DNA from: Gemmatimonadota bacterium
Lineage (GTDB): Bacteria; Gemmatimonadota; Gemmatimonadetes; Gemmatimonadales; Gemmatimonadaceae
Assembly (NCBI GenBank): GCA_026387935.1
Contig: JAPLKU010000005.1
Span: forward strand, 1-64,000
Direction: 5' to 3'
Length of the DNA stretch: 64,000 bases
Positions 29,003 through 33,213 of the stretch are shown piece by piece. Below the pieces are notes generated by a model. The model saw nothing but the letters and a program-made list of their open reading frames with translations, was not told the origin of the DNA and did no database searches. The translations under genes and the position numbers were made by a program. The first letter of the stretch is position 1; each line of letters opens with the position of its first letter.

Positions 29003-30076
29003 ATGATCAAGTACATCGGGTCCAAGCGAACGCTCGTCGCGCGCATTGTTGAGCTCGCTGACGCCGTGCGCGCGAACGCTGGTACTGGCAGTGGCGCGGG
29101 CGGCGCATGGACGGCGTGCGATCTGTTCTGCGGCACGACGCGCGTATCGCAGGGACTCAAGGCTGCTGGTTTCGTGGTGACGGCGAATGATCTCGCGACG
29201 TACTCCGAGGTGTTCGCCACGACGTACATCGAGGCGGACGCGAAGCGCGTGCGAAAGAAGGCGCTGGCCGAAAAGCTGGCCGCGCTCAACGCACTGCCTG
29301 GCTACGATGGCTATTTCACGAAAACGTTTTGCGAAGAGTCTCGGTTCTTCCAGCCCTTCAATGGACGTCGGATGGACGCCATTCGCGATGCGATCGACGA
29401 CGTTGCGGATGGACGCATTGAGCGCGCCATCTTATTGACGTCGCTGATGGAAGCGGCGGATCGCGTGGACTCCACGACCGGTCTGCAGATGGCGTACCTC
29501 AAGGCGTGGGCGCCACGGTCGCACAACGCGCTCGAGCTGCGGATGCCGGCGCTGATCGCCGGGCGCGGTCGCGCGGTGCGTTCAGATGCGAACGTACTGG
29601 CCGCCGAGATGGACGAGGTGGATATCGCGTACCTCGACCCGCCGTACAACCAGCATTCGTACCACTCGAACTATCACATCTGGGAAACGCTGGTGCGGCA
29701 CGATGCGCCGCCGGCGTATGGCGTGGCGCGCAAGCGCGAGGATTGCCGCACCATCAAGAGTCCCTTCAATTCAAAGGTGAAGGCGTGGGAGGCATTCTCG
29801 TCGCTCGTGCGAACGGTTCCGGCCAAGCACCTGATCGTGTCTTTCAGCGACGAGGGGTTCTTCTCGTACGATGAGATTGTTTCGCTGTTGGCTGACGTCC
29901 GCGGTGACGTGGCGGCGGTGCCGGTGTCTCATAAACGGTATGTGGGCGCGCAGATCGGGATCTACAATCCAAAGGGCGAAAAAGTAGGTAAGGTGGGGCA
30001 CCTCACGAATAGTGAATTCCTGTTTGTGGCCGGGGCGGGGGCTGGGCGAGTATTGCAAGGCATGAAGGTGGCGTGA
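29003..30076 (+). CDS. D12-class (Dam-like) DNA adenine methyltransferase
   Basis: A 357-residue N6-adenine DNA methyltransferase of the D12 class. The N-terminus MIKYIGSKRTL, the S-adenosylmethionine-binding motif ACDLFCGTTRVSQGLKAAG and the catalytic motif DIAYLDPPYNQHSY (DPPY at about residue 212) are all present. No restriction endonuclease is adjacent, so it looks like an orphan (regulatory or protective) methylase. Its recognition sequence is unknown. Its stop codon overlaps the GTG start of the first TonB-plug protein by 4 nt (GTGA), a surprising coupling. Confidence 0.87.
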   Translation: MIKYIGSKRTLVARIVELADAVRANAGTGSGAGGAWTACDLFCGTTRVSQGLKAAGFVVTANDLATYSEVFATTYIEADAKRVRKKALAEKLAALNALPGYDGYFTKTFCEESRFFQPFNGRRMDAIRDAIDDVADGRIERAILLTSLMEAADRVDSTTGLQMAYLKAWAPRSHNALELRMPALIAGRGRAVRSDANVLAAEMDEVDIAYLDPPYNQHSYHSNYHIWETLVRHDAPPAYGVARKREDCRTIKSPFNSKVKAWEAFSSLVRTVPAKHLIVSFSDEGFFSYDEIVSLLADVRGDVAAVPVSHKRYVGAQIGIYNPKGEKVGKVGHLTNSEFLFVAGAGAGRVLQGMKVA

Positions 30077-30876
30077 CCGTGGCCGGCGCAACTCAGTTGA
30101 TCACGTTGGGGCGAGGAGTCGCGGCGGGGGCGCTGATTGTGCTCTCGGCCAAAATCGCGTTCGCCCAGTCGGCGAGCTTCCGTGGTCGCGTAATCATCGA
30201 CTCGACGGAGGTGCCTCTTGTCGGCGTTGTGGTATCCATCCCCGAGTTGAAACTCGAGACCAGCACCGACTCGCTTGGCAACTATTGGATCCCGCGTTTC
30301 CCGCCAGGAGCGTATACGGTGTTTGTGCGCAAGATCGGATTCGCGCCGGTGACGTCGCTGGTCGAATTTGCGGCGGGTGAGTTCGAAACCGTCCTCGTGC
30401 TGACGCGTACTGCAGCACAGGCACTGCCCGATGTGAAAATCGAGACGAAGGCTCTGTTGCACGGCAAGCTCGCCGAGTTCCAGGAGCGGCGCCTGGCAGG
30501 TCAAGGAGGGCGGTTCCTCACGCAGGCCGACCTCGAGAAGCACTCGTTGGGCCGGATGAGCGATGCGCTTCGGACGATGCCCGGGATCGAGTTTCGCCAG
30601 AACCCGGGCCTGTCCAATGAAGTGTACGCGGTCGGCGGAAGGAGCTCAGTGCCGGGAAGATCGCTCTCCAGGAACGCTCCGTCTACTCCTTGCCCAGCCG
30701 CGGTCGTTGTCGATGGTTCCTTCGTGTATCACGGTGAGGGTCCGTTGTTTAACCTCAACTCGATTAACCCGACCGACATCGCCGGCATCGAGTTCTACGC
30801 CGGCGCCTCTTCCATGCCCATCAAGTACAACGGCACGCGCAATACCTGCGGACTGCTGCTGATATGGACCAAATGA
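30073..30876 (+). CDS. Plug-only TonB-receptor-like exported protein, array copy 1
   Basis: A 267-residue exported protein starting at GTG in a GTGA overlap with the methylase stop. After a signal peptide (ALIVLSAKIAFAQ), a carboxypeptidase-regulatory-like beta-sandwich (SFRGRVIIDSTEVPLVGVVV to about residue 100) is followed by a TonB plug-like domain. The plug signatures are LEKHSLGRMSDALRTMPGIE, PAAVVVDGSFVY and IAGIEFYAGASSMPIKYN. The protein ends at the plug with TCGLLLIWTK. No beta-barrel follows, whereas a full receptor would need several hundred more residues. Cysteines in TPCPAAV and TCGLL are conserved in all four copies and could form a disulfide. The role is unknown. Confidence 0.8.
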   Translation: MTVAGATQLITLGRGVAAGALIVLSAKIAFAQSASFRGRVIIDSTEVPLVGVVVSIPELKLETSTDSLGNYWIPRFPPGAYTVFVRKIGFAPVTSLVEFAAGEFETVLVLTRTAAQALPDVKIETKALLHGKLAEFQERRLAGQGGRFLTQADLEKHSLGRMSDALRTMPGIEFRQNPGLSNEVYAVGGRSSVPGRSLSRNAPSTPCPAAVVVDGSFVYHGEGPLFNLNSINPTDIAGIEFYAGASSMPIKYNGTRNTCGLLLIWTK

Positions 30877-31682
30877 GGTTCACTCGACTCGCGGTGGTTG
30901 CGCTCATGCTGCCGCAGCTTGCTGTAGCGCAGAGTGCGACGATGCACGGCAAGGTGCTGACCGACTCGACGGAGCGTCCGATTGCCGGCGTGCTCGTGTC
31001 GATTCCCGAGCTGAAACTCCAGGCGACGACGGACTCGCTCGGCAACTATGTGATCGCGAACATTCCGTTTGGCGCGCACATCGTGAGTGTGCGGAAGATC
31101 GGATTCGGGCCGCTCAGCTCGCGATTGGTATTTGCTGGCGGCGCGTTCGAGGCGGACCTCATGCTCACGCCGACGACGGCGCAGTCGCTGCCGGATGTAA
31201 ACGTCGAGGCGAAACCGGTGCCGCGCGGGAAGCTCGTTGAGTTTGACGGGCGACGGTTGGCGGGGAATGGCGGACGATTCCTCACGCAGGCAGACCTTGA
31301 AAAGCATGCGTTCGCGACACTGACCGACGCGCTACGGCAACTTCCCGGGCTCGACTTTCAGCGTGATCCGAAGTCCGGCCGCGGCTACTTCGCGGTTGCC
31401 GGGCGCTCCTCGTTGCCCGCGTGCGCTTTTTGTGGAGGACCGAAGGGTGGTGCGATGGTGCCCTGCTATGCGGCCGTAGTCATGGACGGGACGTTTGTGT
31501 TCGGCGCAGGCGCCGCAGCCGATCCGACGAAGGCGGAGGAGGGCGAGCCGAAGTTCAACCTCAATTCCATCGATCCGTCGTCACTCGCCGGTGTGGAGTA
31601 CTACGCGGGCCCGGCCTCGATGCCGGTGAAATACAACGGCACGCGCAGTGCCTGTGGGCTACTCGTCCTCTGGACCAAGTGA
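30873..31682 (+). CDS. Plug-only TonB-receptor-like exported protein, array copy 2
   Basis: A 269-residue paralogue of its neighbours. The ATG at 30873 (ATGA overlap with copy 1) gives the signal peptide MRFTRLAVVALMLPQLAVAQ; an ATG nine bases earlier is also possible. The regulatory-like domain (TMHGKVLTDSTERPIAGVLV) contains VRKIGFGPLSSRLVF, which is nearly identical to copy 3. The plug part is LEKHAFATLTDALRQLPGLD, with YAAVVMDGTFVFG and LAGVEYYAGPASMPVKYNG. This copy has an extra loop of about ten residues rich in Ala and Glu after TFVFG, and a CAFC pair not found in the others. It ends in ACGLLVLWTK. Confidence 0.8.
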   Translation: MRFTRLAVVALMLPQLAVAQSATMHGKVLTDSTERPIAGVLVSIPELKLQATTDSLGNYVIANIPFGAHIVSVRKIGFGPLSSRLVFAGGAFEADLMLTPTTAQSLPDVNVEAKPVPRGKLVEFDGRRLAGNGGRFLTQADLEKHAFATLTDALRQLPGLDFQRDPKSGRGYFAVAGRSSLPACAFCGGPKGGAMVPCYAAVVMDGTFVFGAGAAADPTKAEEGEPKFNLNSIDPSSLAGVEYYAGPASMPVKYNGTRSACGLLVLWTK

Positions 31683-32443
31683 AGCGGTTTCGCGCGTACG
31701 CGCTGTGCGGTTGGCTGCTCTGCGCGTTTCCCACGCTCCTCGCCGCCCAATCAGTCCTGCGCGGTAAGGTGCTCGTCGACGTCACGGAGCGGCCGCTGCC
31801 CGGTGTGGTCGTGAGCATCGTCGACCTCAAGATGGAAACGACGACCGACTCGGCCGGCAACTTCTTCATTGGTGGCGTTGCGCCGGGCGCGCACCTGATC
31901 AGCGTGCGCAAGATCGGCTTCGGACCGCTCTCGTCGCGGCTGACATTCGGCGTGCGCGACACCGTGGAAGCGGACCTCCTCATGGAGTCCACAACGGCGC
32001 AGTCGTTGCCGGATGCCAATGTTGTGACGGCCGCTCCCGTTTCTGCCAAGCTCGCTGAGTTCGAGGAGCGGCGTCTGTCCAACCGCGGCGGCCAGTTTAT
32101 CACGCAAGCACAGCTGGAAAAGCGGCAAGCGCCCACGCTCGCCGACGCGCTGAGGCCCGTTCCGGGAATCGGGTTCCTGCGCGGCGCAAACGATCAGGGA
32201 TGGTACGCGGTTACCGGACGCGGCAGGACCTCGTTCCGGTCAGCGACCTGCTACGTGGCCGTGATGATCGACGGGACGTTCGTGTACGGCATGGGCAATG
32301 CTGGCGAGCCGAAGTTCGATCTGAACAGTGTGAATCCGAACACGCTGGCCGGCGTGGAGTACTACACGGGAACGGCGGCAATGCCCATCAAGTACAACGC
32401 GACACGGGCAACCTGCGGACTTCTCGTGCTCTGGACCAAGTGA
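31679..32443 (+). CDS. Plug-only TonB-receptor-like exported protein, array copy 3
   Basis: A 254-residue paralogue starting at GTG 31679 inside the last codons of copy 2 (GTGA). Choosing this start gives the signal peptide VKRFRAYALCGWLLCAFPTL followed by LAAQ; longer frames upstream are not protein-like. The regulatory-like domain (VLRGKVLVDVTERPLPGVVV) is followed by the plug motifs LEKRQAPTLADALRPVPGIG, CYVAVMIDGTFVYG and LAGVEYYTGTAAMPIKYN. It ends with TCGLLVLWTK and has the two array-wide cysteines. The strong similarity to copy 2 suggests that these two arose from the most recent duplication. Confidence 0.8.
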   Translation: MKRFRAYALCGWLLCAFPTLLAAQSVLRGKVLVDVTERPLPGVVVSIVDLKMETTTDSAGNFFIGGVAPGAHLISVRKIGFGPLSSRLTFGVRDTVEADLLMESTTAQSLPDANVVTAAPVSAKLAEFEERRLSNRGGQFITQAQLEKRQAPTLADALRPVPGIGFLRGANDQGWYAVTGRGRTSFRSATCYVAVMIDGTFVYGMGNAGEPKFDLNSVNPNTLAGVEYYTGTAAMPIKYNATRATCGLLVLWTK

Positions 32444-33213
32444 AGTTGTTTCGAATCGCAGCGCTCATGTGGTTCATGTGCGCGTCGGCGGCGGCGCTCA
32501 ATGCGCAGGCTAGTCTGCGCGGCAAAACGCTGACCGATTCCGCCGAGCATCCGATTTCAGGTGTCGTGGTATCGATCGACGATCTCAAAATTCAGGACAC
32601 GAGCGATTCGCTCGGCAATTTCCTGCTGCCCAATGTGAAGCCGGGTCAGTACATGGTGAGCGCGAAGAAGATCGGATTCGGCGCGCTCACCGCGTATGTG
32701 CGCTTCGGTGCGAACGAGAAAGTCGAAGCCGACTTTCTGCTCAAACAAACCGCGCAGAGCCTGAACGAAGTGAAAGTCGAAACGAAAGCGGTGCCGCGCG
32801 CGAAACTCGTGGATTTCGAGGAGCGTCGCGCCAACGCGGCCGGTGGCCGGTTTCTGACGCAGCAGGTGTTCGAAAGTCGCGCGTGGGGTGCCACTTCCGA
32901 CGTGATACGCAGCAATGTGCCGGGACTGGAGATCAAGCGAAGCGGTAAGGCCACCGTCGTCGTTGGCGGGCGAATGCAGGTACCGGGTGGCGCATTTACC
33001 AATGGCGGCAATCCGCCCGGTGACTGCCCAGCGGCGATCGTGCTCGACGGGATATTCGTGTTTCAGGGCAACGGCGAACCGCCCTTTGACATCAACTCCG
33101 TGCCGCCCACCATGATTGCCGGAATGGAGTACTACTCAAGCCCGGCTTCGATTCCGGTCAAATACAACGGCACACGCGGCACCTGCGGCCTGATGATCAT
33201 CTGGACGAAGTAG
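32440..33213 (+). CDS. Plug-only TonB-receptor-like exported protein, array copy 4
   Basis: A 257-residue paralogue starting at GTG 32440, again in a GTGA overlap. The signal peptide is VKLFRIAALMWFMCASAAAL followed by NAQA. The regulatory-like domain (SLRGKTLTDSAEHPISGVVV, with KKIGFGALTAYVRF) is the most diverged of the array. The plug part carries SDVIRSNVPGLEIKRSGKAT, CPAAIVLDGIFVF and IAGMEYYSSPASIPVKYNG. The last residues, TCGLMIIWTK, end in a TAG stop, so this is the last coupled gene. The convergent DUF1028 gene ends 16 bp downstream. Confidence 0.8.
   Translation: MKLFRIAALMWFMCASAAALNAQASLRGKTLTDSAEHPISGVVVSIDDLKIQDTSDSLGNFLLPNVKPGQYMVSAKKIGFGALTAYVRFGANEKVEADFLLKQTAQSLNEVKVETKAVPRAKLVDFEERRANAAGGRFLTQQVFESRAWGATSDVIRSNVPGLEIKRSGKATVVVGGRMQVPGGAFTNGGNPPGDCPAAIVLDGIFVFQGNGEPPFDINSVPPTMIAGMEYYSSPASIPVKYNGTRGTCGLMIIWTK

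Follow-up and report, generated by a model that had tools for sequence, protein, structure and literature searches.

A Gemmatimonadota family of SusC-like plug proteins without a barrel, represented by a four-gene tandem array

The plugs of TonB-dependent transporters (TBDTs) are regarded as corks that need their barrel, and the last plug strand of a receptor runs on into that barrel. In SusC, an N-terminal extension (NTE) of no known function lies ahead of the Ton box; it may provide specificity for TonB orthologues, and its deletion was dominant negative (PMC7782687). Here, we describe four consecutive genes at positions 30073-33213 of a 64,000-nucleotide stretch (the window) of contig JAPLKU010000005.1 from a Gemmatimonadota bacterium (assembly GCA_026387935.1). 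Their products, P1 to P4, all consist of a signal peptide, a SusC-type NTE and a plug, in this order, and the chain then ends at W-T-K, where a receptor would continue into its barrel.

Open reading frame (ORF) analysis revealed four intact plus-strand genes arranged head to tail, in agreement with the initial annotation, which had called four plug-only paralogues made up of a signal peptide, a carboxypeptidase-regulatory-like domain and a TonB plug. Pfam bore out this architecture: the NTE was detected as CarboxypepD_reg in P1 and P3 (1.6e-12 each) and as CarbopepD_reg_2 in P2 (8e-11) and P4 (3e-11), and the plug (PF07715) was detected in P1 (6.3e-8), P2 (1.9e-7) and P3 (1e-11). The plug match of P4 (E 0.0046, 17.9 bits) stayed below the cut-off of 23.9 bits, and its identity was settled by the fold of the predicted model instead. 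By sequence reading, none of the four signal peptides carries a lipobox. The best score against the SusC/RagA family TIGR04056 was 27 bits, compared to an NCBIfam cut-off of 368 bits, and no TonB_C domain (PF03544) follows the plug in the window ORFs. P2-P4 are 46-56% identical to P1, and on average 64% of alignment columns are conserved, so their likeness is not a matter of chance. The K-Y-N-x-T-R-x-x-C-G-L-x-x-x-W-T-K C-terminus and a second Cys ahead of an x-V-x-D-G strand had both been pointed out in the initial annotation and proved invariant in all four, with the Cys placed seven residues before the Asp of that strand. Each protein displays the full set of features by which we define the family, that is an NTE, an FxxRR helix, a Cys pair, a CG....WT[KR] end and no barrel. 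In P2, the loop before the first conserved Cys holds two extra Cys (C-A-F-C, window 31422-31433) that are not found in P1, P3 or P4.

AlphaFold (AF2) models of mature P3 and P4, generated from an input alignment of 78 family members, were of high confidence (mean pLDDT of 91.5 for P3, with no segment below 50, and 90.7 for P4) and showed an NTE followed by a plug fold; barrel strands are absent from both models. These models, a check suggested along with the first reading of the locus, are consistent with its statement that such proteins would not function as channels. Residues 2-83 of the P3 model adopt a transthyretin-like NTE fold, matched by VIA to 5aq0 (Z 14.1) and to the SusC NTE 9hfj (Z 12.4); a second SusC NTE, 6ytc, was among the Foldseek/VIA matches. 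The segment 108-231 aligns with positions 96-205 of SusC BT1763 (chain 6z9a_B; Z 9.7, rmsd 3.6), and Foldseek matched the P3 plug to the plugs of CirA, BtuB, ChuA and PirA. The P4 model likewise matches the CirA plug. Searching the PDB with the family profile (hmmsearch) led directly to the NTE and plug of a receptor (9gbc_A, E 8.6e-18). It is nearly certain that the window proteins are barrel-free NTE-plug proteins. They possess the plug of a TBDT, and the C-terminal 22-strand beta-barrel that a TBDT carries in the same chain is missing from them as well as from their homologues.

Beyond the missing barrel, a comparison of 57 sampled plug-only proteins with 18 receptor plugs, 16 of which came from the same genome, revealed several hallmarks of the family (residue numbers refer to mature P3). 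Cys168 was present in 57/57 plug-only proteins, and Cys223 and Trp229 in 56/57 each, whereas none of the three occurred in any of the 18 receptors. Pro213 was found in 56/57 versus 2/18 and Phe105 in 51/57 versus 1/18 sequences, and the alignment columns of an extra helix (FxxRR..G.G.F) were gaps in most receptors. Although some of the 57 rows had been retrieved with a pattern that included Cys223, members from the source genome that were found by profile, free of this pattern, had Cys168 in 20/20 and Cys223 in 19/20 cases, the second Cys being absent from a member on contig C16. Conversely, a basic residue at position 207 (I-E-V-V-[KR]-G-P), present in 15/18 receptors, was retained in only 12/57 plug-only proteins (p=3e-6, which is indicative only, as the sequences are related); we infer that it anchors the plug to the barrel in receptors. 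The Ton-box segment keeps its hydrophobic L-x-x-V-x-V pattern, and plug loop lengths vary widely (5 to 20, 2 to 30 and 1 to 23 residues). Each of the two conserved Cys begins a plug strand, and the pair probably forms a disulfide by which the last strand is stapled in place. As the genome encodes a VKOR (E 1.2e-26), periplasmic disulfides, already considered plausible in the initial annotation, would fit this organism. Together, the extra features suggest that the plug now functions as an independent protein.

The array is part of a much larger family. A profile search of the source genome (2.8 Mb, 28 contigs) uncovered about 16 more barrel-less members outside the window, giving about 20 in all, among them short forms, proteins with two or three NTE-like domains and, on contig C5, a tandem pair without NTE. 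Two proteins of about 820 aa (L072:7752-10205 and L076:5533-7962) combine several NTE-like domains with an unassigned middle part and the same plug as their end, and similar long frames recur in most congeners. Relatives within the genus yielded 7-19 matches each at E 1e-10. Because full receptors also match at E 1e-8, we chose a strict threshold of E<=1e-36, stricter than any receptor score encountered; at this level, the family was found in 195/249 sampled genomes of the phylum and in 82/112 genera. We rejected the idea that it is universal in the phylum, as counts at E 1e-8 take in full receptors and six genomes of another class contained almost only receptor-length matches.

Outside the phylum, none of 99 Acidobacteriota genomes reached E<=1e-36, the best match (6e-32) lying in a 1115-aa receptor frame, and two Bacteroidota records sampled from a plasmid collection contained receptor-length frames only. 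A plasmid search returned barrel-less matches only in Gemmatirosa, the other matches being mostly annotated as receptors. Complementarily, scanning 84,980 species genomes with a DNA pattern for the C-terminal motif, which favours GC-rich codons and could thus miss AT-rich groups, gave 86 stretches; nearly all of the 80 that were listed are named Gemmatimonadota. Pattern matches in Betaproteobacteria, Acidobacteriaceae and Spirochaetia turned out to contain no such gene. A match on a contig labelled Rhodospirillaceae RS361 (L191) was also dismissed as an outside member, since the end of its gene does not differ from that of a Gemmatimonadota copy (L148); the contig is probably misbinned. Judged from these sequence searches, the family is large, old and, among the groups searched, essentially restricted to Gemmatimonadota. 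An initial scan for related loci with the four window proteins had yielded no confirmed relatives, and we found no description of barrel-less plug families in the open-access literature. In a tree, 18/18 receptor plugs fell on one side of a single branch; its support is weak (43), so a single origin of the family is not proved.

One alternative is that the genes are truncated, decaying receptors or products of assembly errors. Apart from the missing barrel itself, the only observation in its favour is one copy without a stop (L165), and it is contradicted by intact ORFs, family-specific conserved residues, the occurrence in 82 genera, synteny with a congener and overlapping gene starts. In the independent DNA pattern scan, 81/83 motif-bearing ORFs stopped within 12 aa of the motif, which excludes a hidden frameshift as a general explanation. 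Neither exception leads into a barrel: one is a DNA match due to chance, and the other reads through into a speA arginine decarboxylase gene. Close homologues end at the same point, with no true continuation into a barrel among them, and neither of the two outcomes that the initial annotation had named as refuting it, receptor-length homologues or a sequencing error masking a barrel frame, came to pass. The conserved stop position and the spread of the family rule out truncation, pseudogenization or frameshift, and we consider the probability of decay or misassembly negligible. The plug of L165, which reads through into the speA-like gene, looks degenerate. In three other loci (L067:7749-12611, L084 and L086), a plug-only gene is kept between an ABC-2 type exporter (ATPase and permease) and a speA-like arginine decarboxylase gene.

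The source genome contains 18 ORFs with a PF00593 barrel, so that plug-only proteins are about as numerous as full receptors. Plug-only proteins could in principle be halves of split receptors that insert into barrel-only outer-membrane proteins encoded elsewhere in the genome, a partnership that the initial annotation had considered, and SusC plugs can indeed leave their barrels in vitro (PMC7782687). However, the genome-wide search for a barrel-only receptor came back empty: every PF00593 ORF has its own plug (by eye, a plug-like region in the case of C17:62578), except for C17:621, which runs off a contig end. With no barrel-only receptor found among the contigs of this genome, a split-receptor partnership is unsupported; the loss of the putative plug-anchoring basic residue and a last strand stapled by a disulfide would also fit insertion poorly, making this explanation very improbable.

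Links to TonB-dependent uptake come from two sister subfamilies. One is tied to SusCD: its member in the source genome (L069:9368-10201) completes the gene order SusC-SusD-plug-only (L069:4699-10201), and in 10/10 distinct genomes, members of at least 50% identity with the upstream gene in view immediately follow SusD in the same orientation (gaps of 23-159 nt). Among more distant members (42-50% identity), four are divergent from a SusC that is 51-58% identical to the SusC of the source genome, and the others have unrelated upstream genes. In the second subfamily, NTE and plug are fused to a TonB_C domain without a barrel (L081:9311-10450, contig C18 of the source genome, minus strand; TonB_C E 1.7e-7). 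Full-length relatives of this fusion occur in 30/150 genomes of the phylum, spanning 14 genera, and those whose sequences were read have the Cys pair and a TonB_C-like tail.

We propose that the family comprises periplasmic accessory proteins of TonB-dependent uptake that bind TonB and/or the imported ligand, a reading to which we give an even chance and which is most tentative for the four copies in the window. Its members correspond to the half of a SusC-type transporter that faces the periplasm, comprising NTE, Ton-box-like strand and plug. After loss of the barrel, the plug may have been remade into a free-standing globular domain by gaining the N-terminal helix (FxxRR..G.G.F), the Cys staple and the conserved Pro and Trp near the C-terminus, and by losing the basic residue that presumably holds a plug in its barrel. 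Following export, most likely to the periplasm, the NTE/Ton-box end would engage TonB, and the variable plug loops could bind an imported ligand or a receptor. The outcome might be ligand relay or regulation of which receptors TonB serves.

Several observations weigh against an accessory role in uptake. Most family members of the source genome reside in unrelated gene contexts, and the window array is flanked by genes for a methyltransferase, a DUF1028 protein and an M14 peptidase, with no receptor, SusD or TonB gene adjoining, so it does not belong to the SusCD-linked subfamily; nor did we find a conserved partner gene beside it that would point to a function or a transport substrate. Moreover, the Ton-box Thr typical of the receptors in this genome (15/18) is present in 13/57 plug-only proteins and lost in 44/57. 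The same lack of transport neighbours for most copies and the loss of the Ton-box Thr, along with members that carry several NTE domains in proteins of about 820 aa, would be expected if the plug fold had been co-opted for an envelope or periplasmic structural or protein-binding module unrelated to TonB, with receptor ancestry only. Such a module is a serious competitor, although we hold it to be less probable than the uptake role, as one subfamily is fixed in SusC-SusD operons, another is fused to TonB_C and the hydrophobic Ton-box pattern is retained.

Two further roles that involve TonB are also conceivable. A free plug might act as a TonB-addressable periplasmic carrier that takes ligand from a SusCD receptor and is engaged or turned over by TonB, with the NTE-plug-TonB_C fusion as a self-contained relay between TonB and receptor. 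We regard this as rather unlikely; if true, it would mean that TonB works on soluble periplasmic proteins, beyond outer-membrane barrels. Alternatively, the Ton-box strand and NTE could titrate TonB and thereby throttle all receptors, a narrower form of our main proposal in which no ligand is bound. Retention of NTE and strand, the TonB_C fusion and a copy number close to that of full receptors are compatible with such competitors, but many divergent paralogues with very variable loop lengths would be left unexplained, and we consider this option unlikely.

At the level of the array (Table 1), stop and start codons overlap by 4 nt (ATGA or GTGA) at all junctions, including that between the methyltransferase gene and P1; an alternative ATG for P2, 9 nt upstream, would extend the protein to 272 aa. 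Synteny of the surrounding block was seen with one congener (G003), in which the flanking genes keep their order and share 58-83% identity, and two copies are present instead of four. There, the methyltransferase gene is also adjacent to the array, with a 68-nt gap instead of an overlap. As P4 is the nearest window protein to both G003 copies (56 and 64% identity), P1-P3 probably arose by local duplication. Elsewhere in the family, 13/86 runs comprised two or three genes, a rough count, since the run-calling rules split two overlapping window genes.

Table 1. Coordinates of the array, its upstream neighbour and selected features of the encoded proteins (window positions).
Feature	Coordinates	Strand	Details
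D12-class N6-adenine DNA methyltransferase, upstream neighbour	29003..30076	+	PF02086 9.7e-34; outside the family
P1, NTE-plug protein, 267 aa	30073..30876	+	GTG start; GTGA overlap with the stop of the upstream methyltransferase gene
P1 Cys207	30691..30693	+	Partner Cys259 at 30847-30849; invariant columns
P2, NTE-plug protein, 269 aa	30873..31682	+	ATG start; ATGA overlap with P1
P2 Cys198	31464..31466	+	Partner Cys261 at 31653-31655; invariant columns
P3, NTE-plug protein, 254 aa	31679..32443	+	GTG start; GTGA overlap with P2
P3 predicted signal peptide MKRFRAYALCGWLLCAFPTLLAA	31679..31747	+	Sequence reading; putative cleavage site; no lipobox seen
P3 NTE (transthyretin/Ig-like) domain, mature residues 1-83	31748..31996	+	AF2; 5aq0 and 9hfj matches
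P3 Ton-box-like strand SLPDANVVTA, between NTE and plug	32003..32032	+	Aligns with the L-x-x-V-V-[VT]-T segment of the receptors in this genome
P3 family-specific helix and strand, EFEERR..G.G.F, ahead of the plug proper	32045..32101	+	Helix 100-111 in the model
P3 plug domain to last codon, no barrel after it	32096..32440	+	PF07715; 6z9a_B alignment
P3 Cys191 (mature Cys168), first of the Cys pair	32249..32251	+	57/57 family, 0/18 receptors
P3 Cys246 (mature Cys223), second of the Cys pair	32414..32416	+	56/57 family, 0/18 receptors
P4, NTE-plug protein, 257 aa	32440..33213	+	GTG start; GTGA overlap with P3
P4 Cys196	33025..33027	+	Partner Cys249 at 33184-33186; invariant columns

Among known systems, the SusC/RagA-type transporter (for example BT1763) is the closest: signal peptide, NTE (PF13715/PF13620) and plug (PF07715) follow one another as in the family, and the predicted folds match. 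It differs in having a 22-strand barrel after Ton box and plug; the family, whose Ton-box segment appears degenerate, has no barrel, has gained the Cys pair, the extra helix, Pro213 and Trp229 and has lost the basic residue at 207. Family members are easily mistaken for receptor fragments during annotation. A 284-aa protein (L238, G267:C60) from a genome drawn as Acidobacteriota resembles the family in consisting of NTE and plug and ending shortly past the plug; in contrast to family members, it has neither of the conserved Cys nor a WT[KR] end and scores at receptor level. The same genome encodes a 424-aa NTE-plug protein with likely C-terminal membrane helices, and both proteins are possibly independent barrel losses. 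The domain that characterises TonB C-terminal domain proteins (PF03544) follows the plug in one conserved subfamily, though not in the four window proteins; in the open-access literature, we found no barrel-less protein combining plug and TonB_C.

Finally, the laboratory-made isolated FepA plug is, like the family, a plug without a barrel. This plug, the one isolated plug described in the literature consulted, is reported in a review to behave as unfolded and, compared with whole FepA, to bind its ligand about 100-fold more weakly (PMC11658791); the unfolded behaviour would account for the need of a free plug for additional stabilising features. The natural, class-wide family, by comparison, is predicted to be folded, and its own features would be expected to stabilise a plug that stands free. 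It gives experimental access to three questions: whether plugs fold and bind ligand by themselves, which role the SusC NTE plays and whether TonB acts on soluble partners.

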